Source of the DNA: Ulota crispa | Lineage: Eukaryota; Streptophyta; Bryopsida; Orthotrichales; Orthotrichaceae | Reading direction: 5' to 3' | DNA length: 64,000 bases | NCBI GenBank assembly: GCA_963920765.1 | Contig: OY987242.1 | Coordinates: 39,607,264 to 39,671,263 of the forward strand | Shown here: one piece after another, positions 19,203-59,889 of the stretch | How positions within the stretch are numbered: position 1 is the first letter of the stretch | Layout of the letters: each line of letters starts with the position of its first letter | Made by a program: the position numbers and the translations under genes | The notes under the pieces: model-generated | The model's input: the letters and a program-made list of their open reading frames with translations, nothing else | Told to the model about the DNA's origin: nothing | Databases searched by the model: none

Positions 19203-19206
19203 TTAA

Positions 19207-21054
19207 TCCCTGAAGGACCATTGTCCCTTCAAAGGACAAATGGGACTTTGGGCATGTGCATACAATCATACTAGTTTTATATAATTTTTTGAAACTTTTA
19301 TCAAAGGTGGGAAATTCAAAGACCTAAATGTGCATTTAATTATTTCTTCATTCCAAAGTTTGACAAAGAAATTATGCAAGAATTTATCAACACTAGGGGA
19401 GTAGTGGCAATATGGACAAGGCTTCTCATTAGTATGTGGATCTTGACTTCCCAAATTAGGCAACATGTGAGGGCAAGAGATGCAACAAGTTGGGCAAAGG
19501 AGGGCCAAGAAGAGGGAGGAGTGGGGCTTGGAAGCTAGCCTTTGTGCACGCTGGCAAGTGTAAGAATGGAAGGTTATGGAGCTAGAAGCTAGCCCCAAGT
19601 AGCAACTTGTGGAGAAAGTGTTAGGAGCAAGGTTGGAGAGCCAAAGCGGCAGTGCAAAAGGTGGGGTGGAATGTGCCCATCCTATGGAATGTTTAACCCT
19701 CCTTTTCACTTGCCCTTTGTAAACATTCAAACTTTAATTTTTTTGAGTGGGTTGTGTAACTATGTTGTTTTAATTTTAATTTTTGGCACGTGGTGGTATA
19801 CTAAGATTCCTTGGTTTTCACCATTTAGAATAGTATAATTCAAATTTCCAAGTTTTATATAAGGGTAGATGCATGGTTAAGTGGCTCAACTTTGGCAAAA
19901 GTCCCTATTCTCAAAGTCCCTTAAGTGGGCTTAAGGATTTTGACTCAAGTGTTAATTTGTAATTGCATCAAGTGTCAAGGTGGCTCAGTGGCCTCTTCAT
20001 GTCTATAATGGACTTATAAACTTAGTCAATGGCTTAACGTTTCTAGATTTGATCTTTTTGTAATTACACACAAGTTGTGTTCTACGGCTTAGACTTAAAT
20101 CAATCAAAGTTATTCAAAAAGTCCTTATTGCTAAAAGCTATCCTAGAACTTAGAAAAAAATTCAAGTTGAAAAAAAATTAGAAAAAAAATAAAAGGCAAA
20201 GGAGAAAAAGGCCTCATAAAATCCAAGGTTAAAAAGGGCATTAAAAAGTCCTTTGCAAACATTCAATACACATTTACAAAACAAGATTATAATTTCTTGA
20301 AATTTTACCCAAATACCCATTAGAAACATAGTCCTTTGTATTCTCTTAGGTAACTAAATCATCTTTAAAAACTCCTTGAAAAACTTGCAGACAGCAGAAA
20401 TGTCACACTCACGTTTTTTCAAAAGTCCTCCATACCTCCATAAAATGCCAAAAAAGAAACTAAACAACATTGTTGTAGTTACAATAAAGTTTAAGTCTTT
20501 GCAATGGACTTTTTTTCTTTTTTGAAAATTTCCAATGTACCGTTTGGGCATTTGAAAATTGAATGAGTGCAATTTTTTATAGTTTGTCATGTTTTTGAGC
20601 CACTCAACCATGCATTCACCCATAATGCCTCTAGTTTTGCATGTATTATTTTCAAATTTCATGACCTTTTGGCAATCCAAGATTTTATAGAACTTGTTGC
20701 ACTTCTCCAATTCATTTGAAAATTCTCCCACACATACCTAACATGATCTTCTACATACATGGGAATTAAAATTCAACTTATTGTAGAACAATTTTTTATT
20801 ATTGTAATAATGGTCAAAGCTTGTGAAAGTTTTGGGCAAGAAGAAAAAAAACCTTTAACTTTTTAGTTTGGATGTCAATATCTCACACTTCTTCATTCAA
20901 TATGAGCTCATTTTTTCCCACAAATGCCTCATGTAGTTTTGGGAAAAATCCTTTGGATAGTTTTTCAAAAATATTTGTATCTTTTTAGTCATTCCTCTAA
21001 CAGTGCCAAATTTTAGTTAATTTTATAGAAAATTAGGGGGTGATCCTTCAAAGG
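19207..21054. mobile_element. TTAA-flanked piggyBac-like element, 1.85 kb
   Basis: TTAA at 19203-19206 is followed by TCCCTGAAGGACCATTG. The right end reverse-complements to CCTTTGAAGGATCACCC next to TTAA at 21055-21058. The left subterminal block (GGGCATGTGCATACAATCAT, then an AAACTTTTATCAAAGGTGGG motif) matches those of the elements starting at 21986 and 22215, so they belong to one family. The minus-strand open frames of 154 and 125 codons inside resemble no transposase. Confidence 0.7.
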
Positions 21055-21985
21055 TTAATTTGAGCTTTATATTCAATCTTCTTCTTTTAAACATTTGCAA
21101 TAAAAGCTGAACATTCTCCCATGAGAATCTGTTTGTCAAGCCAATTTACCAAGGCAAACATTTAGGCACACCTTTGCTCTCTAAGCTTAACTATCTTACC
21201 TTTAGTTTTTGAAAAGAAATATAGAAAAACTATAATTTAGATGTCAACAAAGTACAATTGTGATACAATATATCAATTTGATGAAGATGGCACTTTCATG
21301 CATATACTTTCAAGGTGCCTATGCTTGTAAAGTGCACATTATTAAATTTATCCGGTTGTAAGAAATGTGTAGATCCTTTTTTTCCTATGAACCAATAACA
21401 AATATACTCGGGAAGATCACTCTTTGTGATTTTCTAGTATACACGTGGATTAAGAGGGTATTTGATGTAGGCATATTCATCTAAAATATGGCATTTAAAA
21501 TGACTATATTTTTATATAAAATGTTGCACGGATTATGATTTTGGTACCTTATATTTTTTTATAAATTCATTCATTTGGTTTTTAAATGGGGCTATTTTAT
21601 GTATAAATTTTCTTGATCCAATTTTATCTTATTTTCATTATTCATCAAAAAAAAATCTTTCTTTCTATTACATATACATACATAGTATTCACCATGAAAC
21701 CACTAACAAGCTTATGAATTAAAGGGCTATTGTCCAAGCAAAAAAAATTATTAACATTTTTTTAGTATTTCTCAATTCTATGGCATGTATGTAAAATAAT
21801 TTAACATGGAGAGCAACACACAACACTAAACATTTTTACAACCCCTATTTGTCAAGGCTAATTTATCAGTAGAGAATCCTACTACTTGATGTTTTTACAT
21901 ACCCTAATTAAAATGTATTAAAATATGTAGTGTTTCATGAACCCTATACTAGCTCTACATATTATGAAATTTTTATGTCCTTTAA

Positions 21986-23556
21986 CCCCTAAAGGCCCAA
22001 CTGTCCCTTGGGGGGACAGTTGAGATTTTGGGCATGTACCTATAGTTAATCTAGTTTTTGTGATTTTTTCAAACTTTTGTTAAAGGTGGGGAATTCCAAG
22101 GCCTATTCGGGAATCTAATTTCTTTGTCATTTTGACATTTGAAGATAAAGTTATGCAAGAATTTCTGCTGCCCAAGGGAGGGAGGGCAATCCAAGCAGTC
22201 CAAAAACTTCTTAACCCCTAAAGGCCCAAGAGCCCTTTTGGAGGACAAATGGAATTTTGGGCATGTATCTATGGCTAAACTACTTTGAGTGGTTTTCTAA
22301 AACTTTTATTGAAGGTGAGGAATTCAAAGATCTACATGGAAATATAAAAAAATCTGCATTCCAACATTTATAAAGGAGTTAAAAATGAATAATTAAAAAA
22401 CAAGGGACTCTAGGCAACCCAAAAACTTTTGTAAAAAATTGCGTTTTTTTCAAAAAAAAATCTGAAATAGATTCTTTAGACTTACATAGACGTGGGGAGC
22501 TTTGAATCATTTAGTTCTAATAGATGAGATGATAGTTATGAGAAGTTTTAGTTTGCGGGTAGGTGTGATTTTGATATATAAGTCTAAAGAACCTATTTAA
22601 GATTTTCATTTGAAAAAAACGCAATTTTTATATAAGTTTTTGGGCTGCCTGGAGTTCCTTGTTTTTCAGTTATTCATTTTTGACTTCTTCAATAAATGTC
22701 AAAATGCAGATTTTTTTATATTCCCACATAGATTTTTGAATTCCTCACCTTTAACAAAAGTTTCAAAAAATCAAGCAAAGTAGTTTAGCCATAGGTACAT
22801 GCCCAAAATTCCATTTGTCCCCTAAAGGGACAATGGGCCTTTAGAGGTTAAAAATTTGTATTTTCTAAAAATAGAAATCTAAAATTGGTTCTTTAGATTT
22901 TTTTATATGTGGGAAGCTTTTAATCATTCAATTCAATTGATGAGATGAAAGTTATGAGATGTTTTAGTTTGTGGGCAATTATGGATTCTCTACTCTAAAA
23001 TAAACTTTGAAGTCCTATATTTTCCATAATTTTCAATATTTTGGAAAAAAAAACCTAAACCTAAGGAAGTAGATTGTTTATCACAACATTATAACCGTTG
23101 GGATTTTAATTTTTTAATTTTATTAATTAAATTCTTAACAATTTAGTGATTTGACTCATTCTCTACTTCTCTTTACTTACTATTTCCCCCCATGTGTTGT
23201 ATAGTTCCAATTGATTTGAAATTTCTCCCACACATATCTAACTTAGTATGCTACATGGAAAAAATAAACCTCAACTTTGTGCAGAGTAATTTTTTTCATG
23301 TAAGTGTAGACAAAGGCTTTTGAAATTTTTTGGACAGCACAAAAAGAAACCTTTTCTTTCACTTTAGATGTAAATATCTCCCTCCTCTCCATCTAGAATG
23401 ACTTGATTTTTTCCTGCAAGTACCTCTTCTAGTCGAAGGCAAGATCCTATGGTTGGATTTGCAAAGCAAATTTTATTTCCTACTTTTCTACTCATTCCCC
23501 CCAAAGTGACAGTTAACAGTGACTTTCATTGGAAAAAACTGCTTGGCCTTTAGAGG
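21986..23556. mobile_element. TTAA-flanked piggyBac-like element carrying a nested relative
   Basis: TTAA (21982-21985) precedes CCCCTAAAGGCCCAACTG. The right end CTTGGCCTTTAGAGGTTAA closes with TTAA at 23557-23560. Removing the nested element 22215-22847 leaves about 0.93 kb, the same size as the copies at 4427-5353, 6980-7918 and 35694-36647. The interior at 22860-23120 is closely similar to that of the copy at 4427-5353. No coding capacity is seen. Confidence 0.8.
22215..22847. mobile_element. Palindromic TTAA-flanked element nested in another of the same family
   Basis: Flanked by TTAA at 22211-22214 and 22848-22851, with ends CCCCTAAAGGCCC and GGGCCTTTAGAGG. Most of its 633 bp is a long inverted repeat (arms of roughly 250-280 bp) around 22530, a fold-back variant of the family. 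It interrupts the larger element at 21986-23556. Confidence 0.82.
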
Positions 23557-23628
23557 TTAAATTAAATGGACCCTATCTTTTTAACTCACTAATTTCTAAA
23601 ACATAGGCTAGTGATCTCCTTGAGCAAA

Positions 23629-24546: not shown

Positions 24547-24629
24547 TATACTAATAATTTGAGATTGCAAAATGTATTGTGCACATGTAAAGAAGATCAT
24601 CTTAGATTTATACTTACCTCTTCATTTAA

Positions 24630-26099
24630 CCCTTTAAAGACCACACACATTTTCACAAAATCCATTAGAAACCCGAGTAGTAAACTTGGATGTGCAGTTG
24701 CATTAGATATGGACTTGATTTCAATAATCCAACCGTATAAATGGGAACTAAGGTATGTACACCCATAAGCGTCAAACTAAGGGTTTTGAACATGATGAGT
24801 ATCAATAAACATCTATCAAATTATAGGATCCTATTAGGAACAAAAAAATAATGAGTTTGCACTTTTGAATGTATTATATGGATACTGTGAGAATCAATTG
24901 CAAAGTTTTAAAGAGCAAATTTCCATTGCACCCATAACCACTTTCAAGATTTCATGTTCACATGTTGTACATCCTTGTCATTACATCTATGCACTTCCAC
25001 AAATTTTCCAAGATTTTTAGAGGTGACGGTTATGGGGACACTAATGCTTATGGGTGTACATACCTTACACTTTGTTTATTATGAAGTATCAAATTTTCAA
25101 CTAGATCTACCATTGGAAGTGAAATATTATAATAATTGAGTGAGTTGTAGGTGGAAAATCTCTAGTTTTTGTGCTTGTGTGGTTTTGGATCTTACTACTT
25201 CATACAAGCTTTGTTTGAGAAGAGCCTTATATTTCTAAAAAGCAGCATTTCTCAGCTTTCCAATGACACTAGTTTCACACAAAATGGATAAAAATAGCAA
25301 TCACAAGGTGTAGCTAAGTGGGCAAAAAGGGTAAAAAATTCCACTTTATTTGCTACCCAAAAACAATTTTACAAGAAAATTGATAAGTGCTATGAAAAAT
25401 CCAATTGGTGAAAATAATAAAGAATTGGCCTTAAATGTAGGACAACAAATTTTTAATATGAAATGATAGCACCATTTCAATAGATCTTCAGATATTACAA
25501 TTATACTACTACCGTATAAAGAAACAATACAAGCATATTTCATGAGGAATTTGAAAAATTTTAGGATTGCACAATTGAAATTTGACATTCTTCTTGGATG
25601 TTTGATGTATTGTGTTGTTGCTTTGATCCATCTTTGACCAAATATGGATACATATTTTGAGGCCATGCCGTGTAAACATCATTATTTATCAACTCACATG
25701 CTTGATTTCATTGTTTTTTATTTGGTTGGAAGCAAAATTCTTGTGAGAACAAGCTCTCTTCAAGACCAATTTCCAAATTGTTGAGCAATTTTTGATAAAT
25801 AGGCCAAAAACTACTCCCAGCAACCAAAATATGGTCGCATGGTCCTTAACCCTTGAGCACCCAACTCAAAATTTGGTTTAGGCAAACCTACTCACACTCA
25901 CAAGCCTGTGGTTTCTACAAAATTAAGATAGCTCATGTTAAACCAATCATAATCACTAGGAACCTAGGTACCCCACTCCATGTCACCCTTGTACCACCCT
26001 ACCCTAGTTCTAGTACATCATACTAGCATGACTTAGGTACCTATTTTCAAATTTTCAAGAGGAATTATACTTCCTCTGGGGCACTCAAGGATTAAAGGG
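24630..26099. mobile_element. TTAA-flanked piggyBac-like element whose right terminal repeat holds another
   Basis: TTAA (24626-24629) is followed by CCCTTTAAAGACCAC. At the far end TGGTCC at 25840-25845 is separated from AGGGTTAA by the insert 25850-26091. Omitting that insert and one TTAA gives TGGTCCTTAAAGGGTTAA, the near-perfect inverse of the left end. The outer TTAA is at 26100-26103. No transposase is seen; the 106-codon minus-strand frame at 25346-25666 resembles nothing I know. Confidence 0.75.
25850..26091. mobile_element. Short TTAA-flanked element, subfamily TTAACCCTTGAGC, nested in a terminal repeat
   Basis: TTAA at 25846-25849 precedes CCCTTGAGCACCCAAC. The right end, GGGGCACTCAAGGA, abuts TTAA at 26092-26095. 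It shares the CTTGAGCRCCC terminal motif with the element at 35254-35481 and differs from the CCCCTAAAGGACC subfamily. At 242 bp it is non-coding. Confidence 0.78.
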
Positions 26100-26103
26100 T
26101 TAA

Positions 26104-30494: not shown

Positions 30495-31970
30495 TCACCA
30501 TCTACTTAGACTGACCGCAGAGTCGACTCGAAGCAATCCATTGAGCATGTCGAGCTCAGAAATGCATTCCAATCCGGGTCTCCACCGATTCCTGCAACTG
30601 CCGAACTGCACTGATTTAGCAACACCTGGTGACGACCCTTTTGAAGCATCGTCGTTCTCGTCGTTGTTCAGTTTCTGGAAGGAGAATCGAAATCTCACTC
30701 TTTCGGGAATTATTCTTGCGCTCATGCGCACCAGCGACCTCACGAGCTTGGATTTAGCTACCCTTCGCCTGACCTTCCGGAACTGGCCTCGGTGCCTCCC
30801 AATCCAGCTCCTCACCCTGTGATTCTCCATGTTTTCTTCAGCTTTGGGAGCCGGTTTTTCATTGTCTGCACGCATAGCAAATATCTCATTACATTGGCGA
30901 TGACTGAGGTGTGTAAGTGGTTCTTCCTATGAATGCTAGATTGACTCTAGATTTGCAGAAACCTCTGCTATTTGCACTGAAATTTGGTAATTGCTCATGC
31001 TCAAAGTGTAATGTAGAAAGCCCACTTTGGAAGATGATGAAAATTCCACCACATCGGTTACTATAATTTAAAATAATTAGAACGATTTCCTCTTTGAAGC
31101 CTCCTCCATGATTTATTCCAATTTCTGTAGCTATGGTAATAATCACTAGGAACGCGACATTCGTTAATTTGGAAAAAACCCCGATTATGGGACTTCTGAA
31201 TTTTTCATGTCTAAGAGTTTTTAGGTTTAATAAAGTGAATTTTATGATAATTTCTTCAAGGCTCTACATCAATGATGAAATACCTCGAAGGAATTATCAA
31301 AAAATTCACTTTAAGTTACCAAAATATTCTCACAAATGCAAAATCTTAATATCCCCAAAATCCGTTTTGGGAAAGTGTTTTTCGCAAATTAACGAATATT
31401 GTGTTTAGGACGCTTGAGGAGTTAATCCCACAGTATTGCTAGAGATAGCAAAAAGCGGCCCATTTCATCTGTAGGAGTCGAAATCAACCATGGAGGAAGC
31501 TTCAAGGCAATGAAAAATGTGCCAATTCATAGAGGCAATCAGGAGCTACATTTTGAAATTGTAGTGTTACGAAAGTTACTGTATAATGAACTTCCAACGT
31601 GGACTTTCGACTATTAGCTTGAGAAGTGATGGATTCAAAGTTGCTGAAAGGTACCTTGCAGGGTATCGCTGTGGGAGTTGAAGCAAGGGCAACATTGCGA
31701 GTTAGGGTAGGCGCTGGCGAGATGAGGCAACAGCCGGGGCAGGGGGAGGAGAAGATAAATGCGCCCTTCTTCGAGCACCATGTCGAAGGGCAGCATGCCG
31801 CTGTGGTAGAGAGGCCCGGTGGAGGTAGGCTCGCAGACGAAGTGATGAGGATGACATTTGAGTAACTCCCCAACCGTGACAGGCCGCGCTAAGCTCCGGA
31901 TGTGGCCGTCTCCATGGACGACTTGCACTGGTTGCCATGCGCATATGCAGTTGCAAAACAAACCCTTCAT
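30495..31970 (-). CDS. PADRE (DUF4228) domain protein, two exons
   Basis: Exon 1 (31970-31655) encodes residues 1-105 and exon 2 (30865-30495) completes 228 residues. Exon 1 has the PADRE pattern: VQVVHGDGHIRSLARPVTVGELL, then HFVCEPTS, then LEEGRIYLLLPLPRLL (residues 15-81). The donor CAAG|GTACC and the acceptor GTGCAG|ACAATG agree in phase. Exon 2 is very basic (RSWIGRHRGQFRKVRRRVAK) and carries NRWRPGLECISE, like the W-x-P-x-L-x-x-I-x-E motif I recall near the C-terminus of PADRE proteins. The family is plant-specific and linked by expression to stress and pathogen response; its biochemistry is not established. I start at M31970 because a TATA-like motif lies at 32160, although the frame stays open up to 32192. 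N-terminal C6 and C8 could be acylated. The intron holds a MITE (31151-31404). Confidence 0.78.
31151..31404. mobile_element. ~255-bp MITE in the PADRE intron, TIR GATATTYGTTAATTTGGG type
   Basis: The ends CGACATTCGTTAATTTGG and, reversed, ACAATATTCGTTAATTTGCG are inverted repeats. TAGG lies outside both ends as a possible target duplication. The interior is also partly palindromic (AAAGTGAATTTTATGATAATT pairs with its inverse near 31290-31310). A close relative lies at 41051-41310, and a second subfamily sits at 44751-45008. Superfamily not assigned. Confidence 0.65.
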
Positions 31971-34852: not shown

Positions 34853-35253
34853 TAGTGGAAAGTGAGAACCAAATGTATGAATAAGATAAAATGCATCCAC
34901 ATATCATTAGAAAGTAGTTCTTGTCTATTTTTCAACAACATGACTGATTTGGTCATTGGATGTTTCATGATTATTATGCAAGGTTATTGCCATTTCCTCT
35001 CTCTCCCCTCTATCATACATAATTTCAAATTTATGGTATTAATAGAAATTTCTGAATTTCTTGTTACAGACATACACTTGGTGTTTTATAGGAGAGACTA
35101 GTGTAAGCTTTTGAAAAGTGCAACGTCCAAAATCACACTAATTTGGCTGAATCAAGCCTTGATAGTATGGTGTGACATGCATTTCACTCTTGTTTTCCAA
35201 GTAGAATTATGGCCTCTGCCTTTTGCCACCAACATGGAAGTTTATCATCTTAA

Positions 35254-35481
35254 CCCCTAAGTGCGCAGAGTTATTTTAGGATTTAGGAGAAATTGGGGGT
35301 TTAATGGCCACCACAGCTTGGAAAATTATATCCAAAAAAAGTGATTGCAAAATTTGGAAAAGGACTACCTTCGTTGCTAATGGGGACCAACCATGACTGT
35401 TTTCACCGTACGGGTTGAGAGAAAAAGTGAGATAAAGTTTTTTGCCCATCAACAATATAATGTCAACCGGGCGCTCAAGGG
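35254..35481. mobile_element. Short TTAA-flanked element, 228 bp
   Basis: TTAA at 35250-35253 is followed by CCCCTAAGTGCGCAG. The right end CGGGCGCTCAAGGG meets TTAA at 35482-35485. Its terminal motif (CCCTTGAGCGCCCGG when reversed) groups it with the element at 25850-26091. Non-coding. Confidence 0.75.
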
Positions 35482-35693
35482 TTAATGGCACAACCTTCGT
35501 AACTTCACAATTTGCACACAATGTTCAGTTGCGATAGGTGCTTGCACATTCTCCTTTGAAATTTTTTTCCACTTGTGTCACACTAGTTGCAATAGTATGT
35601 AAATACAAAAAGCTCATAATATATCAAATTTACCTTACAAATAATGAGTTATTAGAAAGACCTATTTTCCAACATTAGCAATTGGTACTTTAA

Positions 35694-36647
35694 CCCCTAA
35701 AGGACCAAGGGTGTTTTTTAAGAAAAAATCTCAAAAATTGCCAACTTTTAGTGCATTGCCCAAAATTGGAAATAAAAACTTTTTTCTCAATTTCAATTGT
35801 ACAAAAGTTTGTAAAACCAATAAGCCAACATGTGCAAAAAATTTCAGCCCAATTGACCACGCAAATTGTAAGATTATAACGTTTGAAGTGAGAAAAACAA
35901 CTTTTTTTGATTCTTGCAAAACAAGGTCAATAGACTTTGAGCCTTCCTAGGGTAATATTTTTGCTCTACACAAATTTGAGCTTTTTGACCATTCACAAGT
36001 ATATGATGTTAGGTTCACTCGTGAAAATTTTTAGATGCAGATATAGAGTCCAACTTATTCTAAATCACCCTCCAATGCAAAGAGGTTTAGTGAATTAACA
36101 ATACATTAGTCATTCTTTCATGATTTCTTGTGCAATGTGGAAGTCTTTTATTTGAAATCTAAAAGGTGAAAAGTTGGAGACAAGCATTTGGAATATGTGA
36201 AAAAAAGTTTCAAGAGATTTGGATTTATATATTGAAAGAAAATAGGGCTTGAAATTAGAGGAATTTTTTTTCTTGAAAGTGCCCAAACATAGATAACAAA
36301 GTTTGACTTCCTTCAAAATGTGATGTGAGAGCTCAATTTTATTTTTCTTTTTTTGACAATTGTGCACCATGGTTTTTTAGTTACATACTTGCCAAATTTC
36401 AAAAGTGATGAGAGCTTTAGCATAAGATTCTCCAAAGATGCTCAAATTGCCCAAACTACCCAATTTCTTTTGGGCAACATAACTTTTGAACCAGGCATCC
36501 AATTGGGGAAAAAATTAGATTTCCACTTGGGAAATACATATTTGCACCTTATGTAACAATTTTGAGAACATCCATTAAAATTTGACTCCATATGACCCTA
36601 CCCAAGTTCTCAAGTGGCTATTGAACAGCCACTTGGTCCTTTAGGGG
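35694..36647. mobile_element. TTAA-flanked piggyBac-like element, 954 bp
   Basis: TTAA at 35690-35693 is followed by CCCCTAAAGGACCAAG. The right end CTTGGTCCTTTAGGGG is an exact 16-bp inverse of the left, with TTAA at 36648-36651. This is the cleanest terminal repeat of the family in the window. The ORFs inside (79 and 86 codons) are unremarkable, so it is non-autonomous. Confidence 0.88.
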
Positions 36648-36754
36648 TTAAAGGTATACAAAAAGCTACTTTTTGTCCAATTAAATTTACTACTTAGTAT
36701 GAGCACTTTTACTACATAAGTTATTTAGTACAGTATACAACAAGACTTTGAATA

Positions 36755-37218
36755 GGGAATTGATATGCATACCACACCTTCTTGACTATCCCACCACACC
36801 GTGGGGTAAATTTTAGATTTCTACCATCAAAAAGTTGAATTTGAGAATTTGGAATTCAGCTTTGGACTTAAGAGATCATGATTTTGTCTAGAACCATAAA
36901 AAAATGTTGTAATTGAACAACACCCAATGAAAAAGCTTAGCTTAGGGAAAAGTATAACTTTTACTTTTGTATATAAAAAGGATAAGCTTTTTCATTAGGT
37001 GCTGTTCAATTAGAACTTTTTTTATGGTTCTAGACAAAATCCAAGTCTCTAAGCTCAAATCTGAATTCCAAATTTTCAAATTCAAGGCAAAATCCAAGTC
37101 TCTAAGTCCAAATCTGAATTCCAAATTCTCAAATTCAGCTTTTTGATGGTAGAAATCTAAAATATACCTTGGGGTGTGGTGGGATAGTCAAGAAGGTGTG
37201 GTACGCATATCAATTCCC
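36755..37218. mobile_element. Mutator-like MITE, 464 bp, with a 9-bp target duplication
   Basis: CTTTGAATA at 36746-36754 is repeated exactly at 37219-37227. The ends GGGAATTGATATGCATACCA and, reversed, GGGAATTGATATGCGTACCA start a long inverted repeat covering most of the element. The right arm contains an extra copy of an internal block (AAATCCAAGTCTCTAAG occurs twice near 37038 and 37089), so the arms are unequal. A 9-bp duplication with long TIRs is characteristic of Mutator-like elements. Non-coding. Confidence 0.88.
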
Positions 37219-37227
37219 CTTTGAATA

Positions 37228-38185: not shown

Positions 38186-40260
38186 TCAGTCTCCCCGAAA
38201 TTTCCAGTCCCGACGACACATGGGACACTGAGGGCGAGGACTCTGAGAGTTCACCCACTTCAAGATGCAGTGCAGATGAAATGCATGGTTGCATGCTCCC
38301 CACACTGCCACAAAACATCACCACTATCAATTAGTCTAAGCAATGTGCACATATAATCTGCACTCTTTCCAGCAAAGACTTGCCTTCGCAATCTGCAGAC
38401 ACCAGTGCTGTCCAGTGAAATTATTTTGTGCTAATTATCGCTTTTTGCTACACCAAATTGGGGTGGCTAATTTTCTATAGTATTTTTTGAAAAAATGTAA
38501 AATATTAGCCAACTCTTATACACGGGTTTGGGAGTAGGAGCCTGGTTTTCAGGGTTCCACTTGATGTTGCCTCACCCTATTGGTGCAATATACTAATTTC
38601 TCACATAACCATCATGAGATTTAGCTTTGATGAAAGGTTGAAAGCATCCAACTTTACATCTGTAAAAAAAAAATTGTAGCCATCCTTGCTACTCAACCAT
38701 TTTTTGGTTAGAAAAAAAGCTAAGGCCACATCATCCAAAATATTTTCACTAGTGCTGACCTTCAGGTTCTTATCTAATTCACATCACAAACAAGGTTCAC
38801 GAAATGCCAAGACTTTCTCAACTGCTCATAAACGTTAAATATAGAGCTCACCAGCGAGATCACTACAAAAGTTGAACTTTTGAGACCAACTTGTTTCATC
38901 ACTATGTATGAATTTCTTGTGCAATAAGTAAAAAGGAAAGTTACAAACTACTTTTGAAAGAACAAAAGACAATCATGATTTATATTAAAAGATCAATGAC
39001 CACATAACCTGAGCCAAATTATGCTTGCACCATGCGAAGGCCAAACAAGTGTAGTGAATGAGATGAGTTGATGTTGGGGAGGGGAGCCATTCAATAGGAG
39101 ACAGGATCAGGGGTCCTTCACGGTATTGAGGTTTTAGTATCTTCTTCCTTATCATTCTAGGAAAATGACATAACAAGCACAAAATCAATATATGTTCTGA
39201 GTCGAGGAGATGGAAATGTAACATACTCAGGGGGCAGTCATCGCCTGGATTTTTGCAGTCGGGACAACAGCCATCAAATGCCATACGACAGATTCCGCAT
39301 GCGTCATCATGCGCATCCCAAGTCCACGATGCAACAGCATGCCACCTGCAAGCACACCCTCAGTCAAATTTAATTTTCTTGCAAAAACAACTGATAGCCG
39401 CATTGTTCTCTTAACGGTAAACCCTAAATGCTCAAGCTATGGACTCTTGAAAAGCCCACTTTAGAAGTCAATAGTCAATTATAATAACTTTCAAAAACGT
39501 ATTTCTTATTGTTCCAAATTGTAGGTTACGGTTTCTTCTTCCTCTTGAGACATTTTGTTCCATCCCCTAAATCTTCTCCTATGATTTATTTCAAATCCTA
39601 CAATAAAGAAAGCAAACACTATGAGCCATTTGAGCACTAAGGACTAATATCAATTTCTCTCAATCAATAACCAGCCATCCTACTGTTTCTTTACAAAACC
39701 TCAAAGCACTAACAGAGTCGTTTGAAATTCGAATAATGCTTTGCAGTTACACATCTCGTCAATCGAAAAGGCATTCACGAGAACCCTAAATACTAAAAAA
39801 CTGGAACCTAAATCCTGAACCCTAAACATTCTCCTAGAATTCTTCGGCGTGATGTTATTTAAGACATCAATACTGGTCTGGAATTTATACAAAGATCGAG
39901 AAAGTAACGCCAAAAAAACATAACCTAAAAGCAAATCAACCATGGTATTGCCGTTTCAGTAAAAATGCACGACAGAGGAGGAGTTCAAGAAAAGACTCAC
40001 TCTGAAGATCATCAATAAAGCGGAATTGGCGCCATCAAGTCAAGGAAGCATTTCACGATTAGCCGGATATTACAACTCAAATTACAGAGTATTCACAAAA
40101 ATGTACACTCGAAACAATTGTATCCCGTAACCGAACTCAGTCAATTCAGTGCCGTAACAAGCCGTGTGTATTGCGTTAGTATCACATCCGCAAAACAGAG
40201 AACAAGAGATTCCAGGTGTTGTGCAAAAGTAGAAAGGATACTTAGAATCTTGACTTTCAT
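38186..40260 (-). CDS. APC11: Anaphase-promoting complex subunit 11 (APC11), RING-H2 protein, three exons
   Basis: The joined product is 85 residues, as expected for plant APC11 (about 84). Exon 1 (40260-40242 or 40241) encodes MKVKIL. Exon 2 (39345-39227) encodes [20 protein letters not shown] up to DDCPL. Exon 3 (38304-38186) encodes [20 protein letters not shown] to the stop. The RING-H2 zinc ligands can be seen: C23, C26, C37, C44, C51, H53, H56, C59, C73 and C76, plus the APC11-specific C33/C34. APC11 is the catalytic RING of the APC/C ubiquitin ligase, which recruits the E2 and drives cyclin and securin destruction in the nucleus and cytoplasm. Exons 2 and 3 join in phase to give M47. 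The exon 1/exon 2 junction is unusual (see findings). The intron lengths are about 0.9 kb each. Confidence 0.92.
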
Positions 40261-42686: not shown

Positions 42687-45600
42687 ATGAAGCCCGCCGA
42701 CATTGGCAATTGGAGCTTGCTCCAGGTTTTTCAAGAAGGTGGAAGGCTGTTGCGTCAAGAGTTCCGTAAATTTTGGCCGTGCATCGTCGTCGTCATCCTG
42801 CCCGCCTCTCTCATCACCGTCATGCACGCTCAATTCGCCGCCGTGTTACCTCCGAAGGCGGGTCCGAAGGTGTACATTAATCAGGTCTCTCTCCTGCTCC
42901 ATGACTTAATTTCTGCCTTAGTTTGCTTGAGTGGATCGTTCCCGAACATGTCTCGGCACTTTTCTGGACGGCCGCTCGGACCTGTTCTGGTCCTAATTAC
43001 GAGAGCTTTGCGTATTGCGATTTTCTTGATATCGGCGTTTCGGTTTCCAGTCTGGTCATATTAACCCCTGAACGGCTCGAAGGCCCTTTCTGGTCGTATG
43101 TACAAGTTTAATAAGTATGAATTGTTATCATATAATGCATCAATTTCTATTGTGAAACTCTTGATTATCAACCACAATCACACAAGTTTCAATTTTTGAT
43201 GTTGTTTTGCGCTTCTTGAAATTTGGTGAAAATAATATTTGACTAATACAACCTTGTATCTCCAAAGCCTGGGCCATTTAGGGGTTAAGTACTCTGGGCA
43301 AAAGGGAGGTACCATTTGGTACTCCACCTTAAACCCAAAAAGTTACCATAAACTAGATTTGAGGTATCAGATTCAATCTGAGCCACTAAGATTTCTTCCC
43401 TCGCAAATTCCTCCTCTTGGGAGAGGGCACGTGTACAAAAAAAAAATGCCTACCTCGATTTTAGGTGATCACCTAAAACCTTCAAAAGTCCCAAAATGTA
43501 CCCTTTTGCCTAGATTACTTAATACTCCCTCTGTCCTGTTATAAAGCTCCAAAAAACTTCAGTATGAGGGATTAACTATATTTTTAGTCATTATGCTAGT
43601 AACAAGTGCATTCTAGAATCAACATACCATCTACCAAATGTGTGCAAAATCTCTAGCTTTGATGTTGCCATTTGGACATCCAAATACTATGCAAAAAGTA
43701 CCATACTTGTACATGTTGCCCAATTCCTCATTATTGATGATTTAAAGATTAGTAGCAACAATGATACCTCATATGGGCAAGGCCAAGCTTGTGAGTAGAA
43801 GAATGCTCTCTAATTACTTAACTTGCCCCCATGATATCATTGGACATAGCAATTGAAATGAGCGAAAGAGAGCTTTTTAGTGGGACAAGAACTAGGCCTA
43901 ATTTGGAGCTTTAAATTGGGACGGGAGGGAGCATGACATTATTGAGAATACAAAACCTTAGCGGCGTCTGTTTCGTAATTGCGTTTGAATTAAGTTACTC
44001 TCAACGTAGAGTCTCATCCTTTTCGGTTCTGTTTGTGTTTAAAACAATCCAGTTCTTATCCGAGCTGCTGACAGAGATTGAAGGATGTTGAGATTGTTGT
44101 GGAACTAGTATTAATTCGAGAAAATTGAATAAAAACTGGTTTGAATTCGTGCCGGTTTCAAATGGTCCTTTGTGGAATAGGCCATTTCACAAAATTATGC
44201 AAATCTAAAATACGCAAAAACAAAAGTAGCTACGGTTTGTTGAAGGCGGATTGATTGCTGGCTGAAACGTGTGCAGTGTCGGTTTTTGCAAAAATCAGGG
44301 GTCTACGGATCTAGCGGAGCCGAAACTCAACTATTTCCACTTGTTTTTCTTGATTTTCTCGACGCTGCTCTTTGCATCGCCATCATTTCTCGTTTGGATG
44401 AGCATGGTCTGGATGTCCGTTGCGATGACGAACACAATCTACAACGACGAGGCGGTTGAAACAACGAGGCACACGGAATCGATTCGTCACTCAAGCGACC
44501 TCGCTGCGGGTGTCGAAGATGTCGAGACAGGTGAGCTTCTCTCTCATTACGGACGGGGTTTTGAGACCTCGGCGAAAAACATAAATTTTCTGAGATGTGA
44601 AAAACAAGACTTCTCATGCAAAATGCGAGATTTTTCTCATGAAATACCAAAAGTTGCGCTCATCTAGCGAGTTGCAAGAAAATGCAAGCGTGGGCTGATT
44701 TTGTGTGTGAGAAAACAAAGAAAATGACAAGAGGTGTGGTCTCTCTTGTAAACACGATATTTGTTAATTTGGGAAAAACAGGGGTCCCAATTTGATTTCC
44801 CCTCAAACCCAAAAAGTTACTTTAAACCAAATTCAAAGGTATCAGATTTAGTATGAACCACTAAGATATTTTCCCTTGCAAACCCCTCCTTTCATGTGAG
44901 GGCACATGTGCAATAAAGAAAACACTGAGCTCGGTTTGAGGTGATCACCTCAAACTTCTGAAAGTCCCAAAATGTACCATTTTTCCCAAATTAACGAATA
45001 TCTTGTTTGTATGATAAAACAAAGAAAACTATAAGAAGTTTGTTTTGCAAACACCGTGCAAAGTCAGGTTCTTTTCTAATTAAAAAAAAAAGGTCTAGAT
45101 GGGATGGAACAAACCAATTTAGAAGCAAAATGTGTCAAGTTTCATAACTCTTCAGTAGGGGATTTTAAAGCTTGGTAGATTTTGAAACTAAACTTGTTTC
45201 ACTCTTTGGCCTTTTTTGAGAGAGAAAAGTCTTGATTTTGCACGGTAATTTCAAGGTTGCCTTCTTTGTTATTTCCCATGTTTTTTCACATGTTTTATCA
45301 TGCAAGAGAGACCTTGCCTTTTGATGTTTTTTTTTTTTTCACACAATATAATCCACATTTGCACTTTCTTACAATTGGCTAAGTACAAAAACTTTTTGCT
45401 TTTCTCATGCAAAATTGCTACATTGCGTGATAAAAGATTTGAAAACGGCTTGTTTTCCTTTGAGGTTGCTTTCAACTCCTATGTTGTTTCACTTGATTAT
45501 TGCAAGCTTATGGGTTGAATAATTAGGGTTATGTGTAGAAAACATTGCAAGTTGCTTGTGCCCTTACATCACAAGATTCCAAACAAATCCATGAATAAGA

Positions 45601-48026: not shown

Positions 48027-51000
48027 TCAGAATCCGTGCCGCCTCGTGGATGAAGACCTTTTTATGCGGAAAAGGATGTCAGATATAACCCAAGGAAAAC
48101 TGAGGAGGTGGACGTCATTCCTGCTCACAGAGGAATATTGGTCTTCTTGATGAAGGTAATCAGGGTGGTACGTCACATGATACCAAGCAGAAGCTTTAGC
48201 GTACTGGTCGTCTTCCCGGTAATCCTCCTCCTCTTCGCTGTAGTCGCTGTAATGATCCGAAAAGAACCACTCTCGTGCTTCCCGTACAAGAGCTTTCACT
48301 GCCAGACGAATTCTTTGCCTGGCCTCCCCAGCATGCTTCCGGTAATGTCTCGAGAGTCGCAAGATGTTGCCGCTCATCACTTCAGCCTCGGTCTCTATGC
48401 CATACTGGTTCATTAGGCCCATCAGCTTCCTGTCATAAGCGTGCCTATAATAATCCGCATCCATCAAAAAATCTTCGTAGCCTGATACCTGCGCATTGCA
48501 GTGATATTGTTTCGAGTTAGTTTTCACGTTACTATCAATATTTGATAAGTCAATGATCAACTTGGCTCATGACATGTTACCTGTAACTGGCGGTCATAAT
48601 TCAGCAGCATAGTCTCCTTTGATAACTTCAAGCTACTGGATTGCTCTTTGGCAGCCTCTATCACAGATCTAAACAAAACTCCAATTACGCACTCTGACTG
48701 GTACGTTTGTTTGTCCTCCTTCTCCATAAAGTCAGGGTAAAGTCTAGGCCGAAGATAAGAGGGGATAATTGCAGGTACACCCGTCTTCGGGAAATCTACC
48801 GCAACAGAAAAAAGCTGTGCAAGTGCAATGCACTTGGGGCTTCTTGCTTTGAGTGGCTCAGAGTCGGCAAACACAACATGTGCATTTGATATCTGGCCTA
48901 AGTTATCGTTCACCATATAATTCACAAAAAACTCATGAAGCTCCTACACAAAAGGCAATTGCACGAGTCTTTAGAGAAAGAGACATAGTCACAACTCTGT
49001 GCCGCAAAGTCGGTTAAATCATCAGTACGAAATGCACAGACAGACACCAATTCAGAGTGTTTCTACTAGAGCAACCAAGATTGCCGAGATTTAGACATAA
49101 TCAGATCATAGCACTCCAAAGTAGACAATCATGCTGTTATTTCCAAATAGAGTAAACAAATGAAATCCAGCACAAAACTGGGGTGTGCTGTAGAAATTGG
49201 ACAGTGATGAACTTACTGCCAAAGATACCGAATGATCCAGTTGCACTTTAGGGGCAGGGGTGTAATCCATAGGCGCCTCTGTGGTGGGAGGAATGAGTAC
49301 TTCATCCCAAGTCACAAAGTAGAGATCCCCATCCAGATCACTTCCTGAGCATTCGTTGGGATGCGGTCTGGGTTTCCATCATTTCAAAGTTAGCTAATAA
49401 ACATGTATCCAGGAACAGCAACCTCAAAAATTCTGTATATCAGTAAACATTTTTGAGCAGGTGAGGATCATGCACCTGTGACCTTCTTGAGGGAACACAA
49501 GACAGTTGACCATATGATGCAAACTTGGGATGTCGACGGCTTGCAGAACACGAACGTCACCAGGATGAACACAAGGATTTTTTGCCACTACCACTGTCCC
49601 GGTGACAACTCTGGCCACCATATTCTCGTGCGTTCCATGGTAATATCTTTGGAAATCGCTTAGCCCATCATTAAAATGGCGGCGATTCCCCGGTGCCGGT
49701 GTGAGCTGCAGAAACACCTCCCCGTAGTTGAGGTAGGAAGTCTCATCAAGGCAACCCATTAAGCATGCGCCTTTTGGTATAAAAATCCTCGAACGTGTCC
49801 GCAAATTGAGTAGCTGAAATGCCCGAAAGGCATCCATGATACTCTTCAAATACGGCTCTCTATTTGGGAGATACCCAGCCTCCAACATCTGGGTCGCCAC
49901 TTTGTGTGTTTCCTCAGAGAACGTCGCCTGCAGTAAATTAACCACCTCAGTGAACATGTTTCATATTAGCAAGAGAGAAGACCAGTCACTCCTTTGTTTA
50001 AAGCAAGTACAAGATGAATAACATCAAATGTGGCTTGTACAAAGCTATGCTCCAGGCAACACGCTATGGTGATATTACCTAGCTAGCATGCAAATCAGAG
50101 GAGCCTAAAAAAATGGTCCTACAAAATAGTGGTGTAGGTTGTATTTAGCAGGTGACACGACAACTCGATGATATACGACAGGCTCAATCTAAATTTATAG
50201 CTTGCTCGAATCAACTGAGATATCCTACAGGTCATTGCAGATTGCAAAGAAACTCATAATGGCCCACAGAAGTCAAGCTGAGCAGTGCCAATGGCAGTTC
50301 ATATCATTCACTCTTCCAAAATGATCAATGAAAAATAGATATCGTTGAGTTCTACGCATCGACAATGCAATCACGATTGTTGCCATTGCTGTGATAGAAG
50401 ACCAAACGGACGGTCTTCTTTCTACTGGAAGTTTGCCATACCTGCAAGATTTCAATAGCTGCTACAGGGTCATCCAGCATGGCATCCAATTGCGTGAGGA
50501 CGGATCTTTGCATCCGTTCAAACACGAAGTCTGGAACGCCAAGGGTGGACAAAAGTGTTATTACTTGGCGGTTCAGATAGCAGGGCAAAAATTTGCTCCA
50601 GTTCAGTATGTCAAGGCCTATGTGTGGCGAGGAGAACTTATTCATACTAGGCCGCAAGGATAGTTTTTCCTGTGAATGGGGATCAACAGCCACAACACCT
50701 TTGAACCCTCCATAGCGAATCTGGAACGCAGACGGAGTTATTCCTCCCGTTCTTTTGAAACCGCATTTACGGGTCACTTTCTCAGCAAGTTCCTTCGAAA
50801 TCTTCCCAATGCCATCGGAAAAGTTGTACTTGACGCCTGTTGAATAATCCACCCTTTCCACGTCGGGGATTAATTCTACTTCGTCTCTGGGAACTTCAAG
50901 TGTGGGAGTAGATGTTGAGAAGCACTGGCCCATGCGGGCTGCACACAATGCTACATTCCGGATGCTCAGAAAATCCCCCATCCATTCCCTGATACCTTGT

Positions 51001-52661
51001 GCCGTGATGCTATCAAGTGAAGCGAACATCCAAAAAGACTGCTCTCGCAGCTGGCTAGATGAGAACGCCAAAAACTCATATTTTTTTTCTGCTAATTCTA
51101 CGCCATCTCGCATCACTGACAATATTCTATCATACACAGGGGATCGTTCCTGGTCCACTCCTGAGGATAGTGCACCAGCCGATACACTATTCCAGTCCTC
51201 ATCAACAAAAGAGACACGAAGAAAGTTGTCAATCTTGTCAATATATTCTCGTGTCACTCGGTTTGACATGTCAATCTCTGGGCCGTAGCAGTAAACCTTC
51301 GTGGGAGTAATGTACAGACGATGCACATTCAGTAAACCTTCTTCAGGCTTGATAGCGCCCTCGTCGGAAATCTGCGTTCTCCGGTTGCGGTGCTTCTGTA
51401 AAACTCTCTTGATCCAATCCGTTGGGTCGTAACATATACTCTCGGAGCACCATATATCACGAAGGGCCAGTTTCACGTACTCAACTGGTGTTCTGTGCAG
51501 TAAGGAATAAAAGGCACTGGTAAGCTTGACGGGAAGAACGTATCCGGATTGAACCAGCACATTCAATAGAAACATAACATCAAAACCGATGTTTGTGCCT
51601 CGGGGTGCGTTGACAATGGGTACGAGGATTTGGCAGGTCACGTTTGATGCTTCCGTATGTTGTAGGACCAGCCTGCGGGGCGGGTATGGATGCGAAGCTA
51701 ACCTAAACCCAGCCAACTTTGATAAAATCTCATTTTTCATCTTCATGCTTACACTGCTTTGACATTTGAGAAGATAAGCCCAAGACTGGCCAACAGCGCT
51801 ATTTGGGGTAAAATCTGTAGCTCTAACCCAAGGCTCCTCCTTTTCGAACTTGTAAAAACTCCAGAAACCTTCCATGATCTCAGTCAAACTATCAGAAGAA
51901 GACGAATCCGCTTGTTTTCGAAAATATATCTGGGGAGGATTTCGTAGCTGCGATAAAGACAGTAGGGAACATTGATGAGAAAATAGGAGCACGAATTGCG
52001 TTAGACAAACTAAAAAAACAGGAGAGATCCGAACTTCTATAAATTGGCATCGCTTGCTTGCTACCGCTTGTTTCTTGCCCTATGCACACTGCTAACATGT
52101 CCCCTATTAAATATCACGTACCTCAAGTAAGAAGCCAGAGAATCCATCTCGTGGTAGGTTAGCAACCTGGATCGAGACAAGATCCTTGAAATGAAACTCT
52201 AGCTTGTATTCAAAAGTTCCCCTTGTTCTTTTCAGCACAAAAACATGTCTCACCCTCCTATGATTAAAGTCAAATTCCGTGGTCACTTTCGGCTGTGACG
52301 ACCATAAGACTTGCATGGTGTCTTCCTGAGTCAAGCATCCCATCTCCAGTATACCTTCCTCGAGGCTGATGAGATTATGTTTGGGCTTATGCACAATGTC
52401 CTTGCTGTGGACGTTCAACCTCAGAGCTCTAGAGCGCAATATGAGGAGGCCGGTGTTGGATAATTCTGCAGCTTTGTGGGCAGCTTCTTGATCTTCGAAC
52501 TGGACTATGGCTTTCCCCATGGACCTCAAAGTGTTCTTGTTGTATTGGATTTCCGCCGAGAAGATGGTACCTTGACCGACACATCCCTCCAAGAACCTGA
52601 CCAGTTCTCCCGCATGTGCTTCCCAGGGAATATTGCTCACGAAAGTCTTCACTTTCTCCAT
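48027..52661 (-). CDS. RNA-dependent RNA polymerase, RDR1/RDR2 type, six exons
   Basis: RDR copies single-stranded RNA into double-stranded RNA for Dicer-like enzymes in RNA silencing. Exons on the minus strand: 52661-52122, 51947-50442, 49927-49476, 49367-49217, 48943-48581 and 48488-48027. All junctions are GT-AG and keep phase, giving about 1157 residues, normal for RDR1/RDR2 (about 1110-1135). Residues 5-95 resemble the N-terminal RRM-like domain of this clade (TFVSNIPWEAHAGELVRFLE, closest in feel to RDR2). The core includes VKYNFSDGIGKIS and IRYGGFKGVV (exon 2), CLDETSYLNYGEVFLQ (exon 3) and the catalytic DLDGD at residues 843-847 (49339-49325, exon 4), with the three metal-binding aspartates present. 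DLDGD places it in the RDR-alpha class. The C-terminal exon ends with LLSFPWVISDIL, typical of the clade. No break is seen, so it looks functional. RDR1 and RDR2 cannot be told apart here without a tree. Confidence 0.94.
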
Positions 52662-54983
52662 ACCTCACCAAGCGGACGGTAATCTGAAAGAGTCTAGAGA
52701 CTTCCGCTGATGAAAGGTCCGCGCTGTTTAGACAGCTATGTATAAATGGACACCTCGGAAAATTTGAAGGGCTCTGTGATACACCAGCAGAAATTTAGTT
52801 GCAAAGATGGCGAACCTGGCATTTCCATAGAGACGTATTACGCTCTCATAGATCTTCCTCAGTCAATTGCCTATCACTTAACAGTTCGATTCACAAATGC
52901 TTCCCAACATCGAACCAACAAGACCTCATTTGACCTACGATTTCTAAATTCCAGAATAATAAGAATTGAAGAGTCCGGCTGAAGCTCACGGTCAAAAGCC
53001 AACAAGAGTAACATCAAAAAATTCAAAGCAATAATAGAGTTCATGAGAAAAGGGTGCAGTAGTCTGAGAACCAAGGAAAAAGACAATTTTAAAGTGCAAG
53101 AGTACCCCTACCGACCTACCGTATGACACAATATCAGCAGTACTACAATTTGTGAGCAACACACGAGCATTACGAGGATACAAGAAATCACTTGGATAAA
53201 ATTAAACTATGGTGTGGTGTACGCTATGCTAAATTGACTGGATATGGACAATGAAACATGACACCATCTCCAGCTAAATTCGGAAGAAGAGAAGATCGAA
53301 CCAGACAAGTGAAATGGAATCATCATCCAACAAACAAACAACAGAGAGATACATGGAGAAATATACACTTGTCTCTTGAGTCCAAGTAGGCGCTTGAGCA
53401 CTTAATATTTCCCGACGATGAAAAATTCAGGGACGCCAGGAGCAGTGTCCCGCTGTATTTGACAAGGCCTTTTCAGTCGTCAAAGCTTTGAGCTGCACAA
53501 CAAATAGCTATGTCAGTTCACGAGAAACTGGTACCCTCAGTTTGTGGCAGACGAATATTGTTCAGCATGAGTCGCAAAGTGAATGTAAAAACATGCATTA
53601 ATGAATCAGCATGATAAGTCACATACCTTGACGGAAAAAGGCCTACAGTCAGTGAAAGCAAGCTGCAAACTGTAATCACTTGTAATTTGCGCAGACAAGG
53701 ACAAAAAGGTGGATCAAATATTGACGATCTTCAGCAAACGTAAAGAGAGACATCTCAAGAGAGCATTAAATGACTTGTTCAGCTTCTAAACAGCCTTGGC
53801 CATATTTTTCTCAAGAAAGACCTAATAGAGTCGATAAATAGTGGAAAGAAAGCATGAGGTATTTAATTGCACAAGTCGTCCGGCTTAAGCATTCATAACA
53901 AGCTTGAAAAACAGCAGCATCATCCTCAAAAGTGAAACATTGCGGTTCTGCAACGGCACCGGCGTACATTAGGAGTTTGCAGACTCTGAATCTCATGTCA
54001 TAACCTACGTTCAGCAGTTGCAACAACCTCACAACGCAGAACGAAAGCAGCAACGACACAGGCAACCATTAGAGAATTCCAATATCTCAAGCACGTTGTC
54101 ACTCTATCTCTCAGAGCAACGTCAACATCTTCTTGAACTTTAGATATCATCATATAGTGTCATCATCATCTGTCTTCAATTTTCTAAACAATAATATTTG
54201 AACTCTGCTTGCATAAAACACAGGAATAGCAAGGACTACAACAACACAACACACATTTGCTGGTTGGAAAGATGAGAAAGGGGAGCCTTCTTCAGCTGAA
54301 GGGTTCTTCGGCAGACCAAGTTAAGTTCTTTCAAAGCTACATATTTTCTCACCCAGAACATTGTCAGTTTGCCACCGCCAAACCTGCTTCAAGAACGTCG
54401 TCAAAGAATGCGCTTAAACATATTCCACCATGCACAAGCAATAACAGTTTCAAATCTCACCGGTGAGTCACATCCGCGACGAGATCAACCGAGCAACTCA
54501 AGCACTACAACGGCGAGTTGAATATTTGAGTATTGCCATGAATAAACAAATACATGCACAGAGCGGCTCTAAAAATTCTCAGAATCTTCAATTCCGCACA
54601 CAATACAACTCGCAGACACACACATTGAGAGAGGCAACGACAACACCCTGCAAGCTCTGAACAAAATCGTACTTTACCAGACAAGACAATTGACAACGCA
54701 CGTTCTGTGCCACAACATCACTTCTGGCACCAACTCTACTGATAAGAAGGACAAAGGGAGCAATTGCAAAGAGAGAATTAGCACTTGAGTGGAAATTGAT
54801 GATGCAAATATGGTAAACTCTTCACTCTATATATCCACTATCCACCTGACGTACAAGGGAGCAATTCTCAAATCATGAGAAACTATCAAGCTTTTATACA
54901 CCCTAAAAAGTACGAGTAATTAGCATGCACAATCACGCAAGCTAAAATATAACCAACTGATTCACACTTTATTGTTTTTTTCT
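52662..54983. other. Upstream region of RDR; no separate gene recognised
   Basis: Base composition is genic rather than repeat-like, and short frames occur on both strands, but none is recognisable. It may hold the RDR promoter and a 5' UTR with introns, or a non-coding transcript. Confidence 0.4.
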
Positions 54984-58200: not shown

Positions 58201-59889
58201 TTTCGGTGGCATACATTATGATATTTGGGTGTGTTGCGTATGCCAAGATCCCTGATGCATCAAGGACTAAGCTTAATGCAAGGCCGTGAAGTATTTGTTT
58301 TTGGAATATTATGAGGGCTCTAAGGCATACATGCTAATTTGTTTGGAGTCTAAAAAGATCATTCAATGTTGTGATGTGACCTTTTGTGAACAAGGAAAGT
58401 TGCAAGGAGAATTAAAATTGGGTTCAAATGGAAATAGTGGTGATTTTGTTGTGGATTCATCTCCAACGCCTTTGGATAATGATGATGATGGAAAAGATGA
58501 AAATCAGCCCCTTGAGGATGGAAATGGTGACTTTGTAGAGGATGCAAGTGCAAGCCAAGGCGATGATGGCTCCAAGCCCAAGAAGATTACAAAGAAGAAA
58601 AAGATACAAAGAATTGCTCCAAATAATGATGTGGGAGGAAGCCAACATCTGGGAGGCGTGCGGCGGTCCACAAAGATAAGCAAGCTTTTGGAGGAGTGGT
58701 AAAAGAATCATATCTTTCCTCAACCATCTTCAAACTCGGATCATGCTAATGTGGTCTTTGTTCATGATTCCACTACACTGGTAGAGGCTTTGGAGTCTTG
58801 GGATGCAAACAAGTGGGAGGCGGCCATGGAGGAGGAATACCACTCCCTCCATGCCAACGGCACGTGGGAGTTGACCACCCTTCCTTCATTTTACAAGGCG
58901 GTGGGATGCAAGTGGGTGTTCAAGACCAAAAGAAATGTCACGAGAGAGATTGTGCTCCACAAAACAAGGTTGGTGGCAAGGGGGTTCTTTCAAGTCCAAA
59001 TAGTAGGTTTCAACAAGACTTTTGCTCCCGTAGCCAAGTTCAGTACTATACGGTGCATTGTGGCTCTTGGAACTTCATTAGACTTAGAGATGCACCAAAT
59101 GGATTTGATGATGGCATTCCTCAACGATGACTTGGAGGATGACATTTACATGGAGCAATCCAAGGAATTTGTGCAACGTGGTCATGAGCACCTAGTTTAC
59201 AAGCTCACAAAGTCCTTGTATGGGCTGAAACAAAGGCATGGTACCAAAAGATTGATGCATGTCTTTTGGGTTTTGGTTTTGAGAGAAGTATGGCGGACCA
59301 TAACTTATATTTTGTCCAAGTGGGAACCCATCTGATGCTTGTGCTTGAATATATTGATAACTTGATCATATTCTCTAGCAACGTGGAAACCATGAGTGCG
59401 TTAAAGGTCAAGTTGGAAGCAAAGTACAAGATGACAGACTTGAGGAAGTTGCACTATTGTCTTAGAGTGGAGTTTGCCAGAGATTAAGGTGTGAGAAACA
59501 TCACCATGAGCCAATCCAAGTATGTGGAAGAAGTGCTGAAGCGGTTTGGCATGGAAGATTGCAAACCCATTGGCACTACATTGGACATCAAAGTGAAGTT
59601 GGTGAAGCTTATCATAGAGGAAAATGATGCGGAGGCTTCGAGGATGGTGAGTGTGCCTTACATATCAGCAGTTGGATCCTTGATGTATGCCATGATGGCT
59701 ACAAGGGCTGATTTAACTTTTGCTAGAAGAAGGTGGAGAAGAGAAGCATCACATTGGAATATTGCTCAACTAAAGACATGTTGATAAATGTGATGACAAA
59801 GGCGTTGGCGAGAGATAGACATGAGCGTTTGACAAGGGCCATGGACATTGGGAACTTTGGCCATTTGCAAAGTGGAAGTGTTGAAAGGT

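Follow-up and report, generated by a model that had tools for sequence, protein, structure and literature searches.

piggyBac, known chiefly from animals, is in wide use as a vehicle for gene transfer. According to the accessible portions of the published accounts, its hallmarks are a TTAA target and ends that start with CC (PMC2872659, PMC10813416, PMC10045372), the termini reading 5'-CC..GG-3' (PMC10045372). A CC[C/T]T tip is described in the available text as general, not universal (PMC2872659), and several other tips are listed for animal piggyBac (PMC10813416). In the part of PMC7351741 that is available, the left end of T. ni piggyBac carries a palindromic repeat at bp 17–33 that is bound by cysteine-rich domains, with the minor groove narrowed at approximately bp 25; the ends are asymmetric, and the repeat is present in a different arrangement at the right end. 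For piggyBat of Myotis lucifugus, the accessible text reports an imperfect palindrome at the left end, placed 3 bp past a bp 11–16 motif, and none at the right end (PMC11707139). Such palindromes are not universal among piggyBac elements. Finally, the piggyBac-derived MITEs of Acropora corals (CMITEs) are described, in the portion of the source available, as non-coding, TTAA-flanked elements of several families that insert into one another and occur as filled and empty alleles, with tips that fit CC[C/T]T; piggyBac transposases were also recovered from these corals, in one case with ends identical to theirs (PMC2872659).

For land plants, the record in the sources consulted, which were available in part, consists of tables from surveys, labels given to repeats and brief mentions. 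In a 2015 survey PiggyBac is one of the superfamilies that occur in every group studied, among them land plants (PMC4438587), and a genome table for the fern Ceratopteris gives 1,230 'PiggyBac' copies amounting to 122,417 bp (PMC6890710). One review counts PiggyBac as one of seven angiosperm MITE superfamilies (PMC10004981), another names it as a class II superfamily of plants (PMC10794571), and its occurrence in plants is stated in two further papers (PMC8086355, PMC10813416), the former citing Bouallegue 2017. A further candidate source, PMC10619864, uses only the word 'piggybacking' in its available text and was discarded. The Ceratopteris entries share both the label and a land-plant host with the elements reported here, but they are a repeat-annotation count for which the accessible part of the source describes neither ends nor a transposase (PMC6890710). 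A description of land-plant piggyBac ends together with their transposase was not met in the openly accessible literature searched, insofar as the texts were available. The view of the first-pass annotation that land plants have little or no record of piggyBac is weakened by these sources. piggyBac in land plants is already on record; what is added here is a set of four insertion sites that could be resolved and a subterminal palindrome that lies as far from the element end as in piggyBac.

The window, that is, the whole 64-kb stretch of DNA analysed here, contains ten TTAA-flanked candidates, named E1–E10 in coordinate order and given without strand. All ten were located where the first-pass annotation had placed them. 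Five belong to one family (family A): E1 (4427–5353, 927 bp) and E2 (6980–7918, 939 bp), which lie in the left and right arms, respectively, of a larger palindrome; E3 (19207–21054, 1848 bp, of which 759 bp are a foreign insert); E4 (21986–23556, approximately 938 bp without the nested E5); and E5 (22215–22847, 633 bp), a foldback nested in E4. The others are E6 (24630–26099, approximately 1.2 kb without the nested E7; ends CCCTTTAAAGACCA / CCCTTTAAGGACCA), E7 (25850–26091, 242 bp), a MITE in the right terminal repeat of E6, E8 (35254–35481), a 228-bp MITE with the ends CCCCTAAGTGCGC / CCCTTGAGCGCCC, E9 (35694–36647, 954 bp) and E10 (43065–43284), a 220-bp MITE with the ends CCCCTGAACGGC / CCCCTAAATGGC. 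Immediately to the right of E9 there is a strong foldback (36748–37225) with 123-bp arms that are 91% identical.

TTAA flanks or close variants had been proposed for every element, and TTAA is present on both sides of nine: E2 (6976–6979 and 7919–7922), E3 (19203–19206 and 21055–21058), E4 (21982–21985 and 23557–23560), E5 (22211–22214 and 22848–22851), E6 (24626–24629 and 26100–26103), E7 (25846–25849 and 26092–26095), E8 (35250–35253 and 35482–35485), E9 (35690–35693 and 36648–36651) and E10 (43061–43064 and 43285–43288). The exception is E1, which has TTAC on its left (4423–4426) and TTAA on its right (5354–5357). Similarly, CCC starts or close variants had been noted, and CCC itself begins 13 of the 20 tips; the 5'-CC..GG-3' form of piggyBac is seen in 16, CC being absent from the left tips of E1 and E3 and the right tips of E2 and E7. 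The first base is C or T in all 20. The strict CC[C/T]T tip occurs at five ends (E3 right, both ends of E6, E7 left and E8 right) and CCCCT at nine. The exact 16-bp inverted repeats reported for E9, CCCCTAAAGGACCAAG, were confirmed; as the target site is a palindrome too, the repeat continues over 22 bp. The earlier estimate of about 8 kb, or about 13% of the window, also agrees with the union of the ten elements, 8157 bp or 12.7%, a figure that includes the 759-bp insert in E3 (19863–20621). This insert has inverted ends of the type GGGT..ACCC and a 4-bp ATAA duplication, and E2 supplies its empty site. As had been noted, recognisable coding sequence is absent from the elements, several of which, at 0.9–1.2 kb, are long for MITEs.

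The elements do not form the single family that had been proposed; four to six interior types were found instead. The family-A members E1–E5 are homologous, with 69–81% identity between copies, and E5 consists of one family-A end present twice, its 275-bp arms being 86% identical. E9 has approximately 92 bp of one end in common with E1. When the interiors of E6, E7, E8, E9 and E10 were compared (10 pairs in two orientations, giving 20 comparisons with 100 shuffles each), 18 of the 20 scored below the best of the 100 shuffles. The two exceptions are both inverted comparisons: E7/E8, which tied with the best shuffle (30 and 30), and E7/E10, which lay barely above it (29 and 28). The interiors of E6, E7, E8 and E10 thus appear to have no convincing kinship with each other or with E9. 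Four to six interior types with common ends are what a single transposase acting on several lineages would be expected to leave.

E1 and E2 lie within a palindromic (foldback) element of 4.3 kb (3951–8258, both included) that is itself inserted in a CACTA transposase gene. The foldback element splits Transposase_21 into two parts (3727–3954 and 8259–8612), is flanked by the 11-bp target repeat ATGGCCTTGAC at 3940–3950 and 8259–8269, and has short GTGAGC-type tandem repeats at its tips; the length of the target repeat recalls Mutator-like elements. Elsewhere the window contains a plant-type RNA-dependent RNA polymerase gene with RRM and RdRP domains and an RDR6-type second domain (50355–52664, minus strand), an APC11-type RING-H2 gene in two pieces (approximately 38195–39308, minus strand), a PADRE-domain gene stretch (approximately 31716–31934, minus strand), Copia retrotransposon stretches with GAG-pre-integrase, integrase and RVT_2 (57366–59332) and a tandem array of 18.6 copies of units of approximately 37 bp (9703–10370). 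The CACTA matches are DUF4218 and Transposase_21, together with a DUF4216 match below its cut-off. PADRE and these CACTA domains are typical of plants. The gene and domain content is consistent with a land plant and, since E1 and E2 lie within other plant transposons, contamination is unlikely.

As the elements had been selected for TTAA, proof was sought at insertion sites without assuming that sequence. Four insertion sites could be resolved, three of them (E1, E2 and E5) through a homologous unoccupied site and one (E7) through the restoration of a terminal repeat. E1 interrupts the left arm of the foldback element; the right arm (6780–6929) is unbroken and has a single TTAA (6843–6846) at the same point, where it reads CTTC-TTAA-TGACTC. 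E2 interrupts the right arm, and the left arm (4227–4425) is unbroken at the homologous point, where the empty site (4293–4296) is GTAA on the complementary strand, one base off TTAA. Excision of E5 from E4 in silico allows E4 to be aligned with E2 across one TTAA, in a divergent full-length alignment with 675 identities, 158 mismatches and 223 gap columns; when E5 is left in, E2 aligns onto the nested E5, and the removal of E5 resolves this. E7 occupies a TTAA within the right terminal repeat of E6, and only after excision of E7 is this repeat restored, reading CCCTTTAAGGACCA where its left counterpart has CCCTTTAAAGACCA.

The boundaries of the elements were examined by blastn with 200-bp flanks. 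Among the 14 inter-copy alignments that touch element ends, 11 end 4 bp outside the element and 3 end 5 bp outside; two self-comparisons reach farther, 10 bp for E5 and 6 bp for E9. In total 41 inter-copy alignments were obtained, of which 27 lie within elements, 4 represent the palindrome arms that flank E1 and E2, and the other 10 involve E5, for which the flank is E4. Not one of the 41 extends more than 5 bp from an element into non-element flank. Together with the resolved sites, these data show that the TTAA target is duplicated on insertion. The proposal that a land-plant genome here carries non-autonomous elements which duplicate TTAA and end in CC..GG, as piggyBac does, is supported.

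Inside the termini, a palindrome was spotted in E4 and E9 before any comparison with the published piggyBac position. At the left end of E4 (21998–22022) it spans bp 13–37 with its centre at bp 25 and all 10 arm pairs formed (CAACTGTCCC..GGGACAGTTG), and at the right end of E9 (36611–36635) it occupies the same span and centre with 9 of 10 pairs (CAAGTGGCT..AGCCACTTG). The right end of E2 (7883–7907) has 9 of 10 pairs centred at bp 24 (CAATTGTCCC..GGGACAAATG), the right end of E7 (26058–26077) has 8 of 10 centred at bp 24.5 (AGAGGAA..TTCCTCT), the right end of E5 (22812–22836) has 8 of 10 centred at bp 24 (its left end has 6 of 10), the left end of E3 (19219–19242) has 7 of 10 centred at bp 24.5 and, with E7 excised, the right end of E6 (25817–25841) has 7 of 10 centred at bp 25. 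Thus, at least 7 of 10 arm pairs are formed around a centre at bp 24–26 of one end in seven of the ten elements (E2, E3, E4, E5, E6, E7 and E9), while E1, E8 and E10 have no palindrome there, their best value being 5 of 10. The letters of the palindrome vary from element to element, yet the pairing is maintained and the centres remain at bp 24–25. At one end of family A the order is terminal inverted repeat, palindrome and then TTTTGGGCATGTACCTATGG, and the opposite end differs.

In a hairpin test with 200 shuffles of each end, the observed structure was matched or beaten by 0 shuffles for E4, 0 for E9, 1 for E2, 4 for E7, 5 for E5 and 58 for E6, so that the E6 value is not significant; at the other end of E3 a hairpin at bp 20–37 was reached by 5 of 200. 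The position of the centre was then assessed over 128 centres at both ends of E4, E6, E7, E8, E9 and E10 (12 ends in six elements), with E1, E2, E3 and E5 omitted on account of their kinship with E4. At bp 25 the arm score averaged 5.0 out of 10, which was the highest value among the 128 centres and was reached by 0 of 4000 composition shuffles, a figure that overstates the evidence because the palindrome ends are partly related and are not independent samples. For comparison, 580 control ends at 290 other TTAAs averaged 2.7 at bp 25, with 0.5% reaching 8 and 3.6% reaching 7 at bp 24–26. A second shared palindrome position was not seen across the element ends. Beyond bp 37 the left end of E4 resembles the right end of E9 (0 of 300 shuffles), and weaker, suggestive similarity is present for E9/E7 (3 of 300), E4/E7 (7 of 300) and E4/E6 (11 of 300). 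On this pattern the palindromes may share descent from one ancestral end and, if so, the change of letters with the pairing kept is the point that matters.

The duplication of TTAA, the CC starts, the lack of coding sequence, the nesting of elements and the bp-25 palindrome in seven of ten elements lead to a piggyBac-type reading. The elements are probably non-autonomous piggyBac-type DNA transposons, mobilised in trans by a transposase whose gene would lie elsewhere in the land-plant genome. Like T. ni piggyBac and piggyBat, as described in the available texts, they have a TTAA target, asymmetric ends and a palindrome near bp 25 of one end. Beyond TTAA and CC, the agreement in palindrome distance is the best evidence here for a piggyBac-type transposase. 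They differ from both in that no transposase gene of this type was found here in approximately 1–47 kb, the tips are mostly CCCCT, the host is a land plant and the palindrome letters differ between families; moreover, in T. ni piggyBac, according to the portion of its description available, each end has the repeat, in differing arrangements. With the coral CMITEs they have in common a non-coding, TTAA-flanked structure, the presence of several families, insertion into one another and filled and empty sites, whereas the corals yielded transposases and, in the accessible account, have tips that fit CC[C/T]T (PMC2872659), as against five of 20 here. That count weighs against piggyBac but is not decisive, because other tips exist among animal piggyBac elements in the available listing (PMC10813416). 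The four tips without CC, the lack of the palindrome in E1, E8 and E10, the GTAA at the E2 empty site and the failure to find a piggyBac transposase domain in approximately 1–47 kb weigh on the same side.

If the homology with piggyBac holds, the ends would be paired by a transposase dimer across the first approximately 16 bp, and the cysteine-rich domain of the transposase would grip the palindrome. The element would then leave by way of TTAA hairpins and be inserted at another TTAA, and the DNA that it left would be resealed. As only the ends would be required, four to six interior types of 220 bp to 1.2 kb could be served by one machinery.

Candidates for that machinery were sought in a Pfam scan of both strands of approximately 1–47 kb, with stops read as X and a threshold of E 0.05, and in selected reading frames of 47–64 kb. 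In approximately 1–47 kb the matches were to CACTA domains and host genes, with two more below threshold; neither DDE_Tnp_1_7 (PF13843) nor any other non-CACTA transposase domain was found on either strand of that interval. Neither a tRNA nor an Rfam family that reaches its gathering score was found in the window. An exact 20-base element end has no match in viral or prokaryote genome contigs, a result that is uninformative for plants. The missing transposase domain in approximately 1–47 kb is compatible with an undescribed TTAA-targeting plant superfamily in which CC starts and a palindrome at bp 25 evolved independently, as is the fact that CCCCT tips are commoner here than the CC[C/T]T of animals; however, TTAA, the CC-start ends and the palindrome distance must then all have converged, and we regard this explanation as unlikely.

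Besides a piggyBac-type origin, a Sola-type one was considered, as Sola3 uses TTAA. The available Ceratopteris table lists 2,739 Sola copies (PMC6890710). We hold this origin to be unlikely. Kolobok-type cut-and-paste elements likewise duplicate TTAA, the duplication that is shown here for the elements of the window, and in the accessible text they are recorded in chlorophytes and red algae (PMC9587614). Kolobok and T2-MITE elements have the TTAA duplication in common with the present elements, but their ends are given, in the parts of the sources available, as 5'-RR..YY-3' (PMC6004289, PMC9587614), whereas a purine start is seen at none of the 20 tips here. Kolobok was rejected on this ground and is a very improbable source.

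The excess of element-like ends over chance was measured against simulated windows of three Markov orders, 60 per order. The window has 18 TTAACCC ends, 13 of them belonging to elements; the simulated means were 7.8, 5.2 and 4.8, and the maxima 15, 11 and 10. Pairs of TTAA[CT]C[CT] ends lying 150–2000 bp apart were then counted over 16 compared bases. At least 11 of 16 identical bases were found in 7 pairs, with a simulated mean of 0.02–0.03 and a maximum of 1; five of the seven are true pairs (E4, E5, E7, E9 and E10, the last with 11 of 16) and two are cross-pairs of the nested E4 and E5. At least 9 of 16 identical bases were found in 11 pairs, compared with 0.3–1.0 in simulated windows. The ends of E3 and E8 match at 10 of 16 positions, which is near chance by this count and makes E8 weak alone, and the count does not catch E1, E2 or E6. 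E3 is supported by homology, and E1, E2 and E6 are supported by insertion sites. That TTAA and C-rich patches in AT-rich DNA were simply selected by eye is scarcely credible, for although ends comparable to those of E8 alone arise 0.3–1.0 times per simulated window, chance is ruled out for E1–E7 and E9 by the four resolved insertion sites (E1, E2, E5 and E7), by copy-to-copy similarity that ends at TTAA and by seven end pairs where 0.02–0.03 are expected. E1–E7 and E9 are almost certainly transposable elements.

Overall, the resolved insertion sites and the common end design in a plant provide a direct handle for locating the plant transposase, and a palindrome at a fixed distance with changing letters would give a protein-free sequence test for an end gripped by a cysteine-rich domain. 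The wider meaning, to which we give an even chance, would be that a piggyBac transposase whose cysteine-rich domain binds the palindrome is, or was until recently, native to this land plant and has driven four to six non-autonomous lineages; that piggyBac-type DNA, at approximately one-eighth of the window, is a major component of its genome; and that the bp-25 palindrome is ancient, functionally kept and common to animals and plants.
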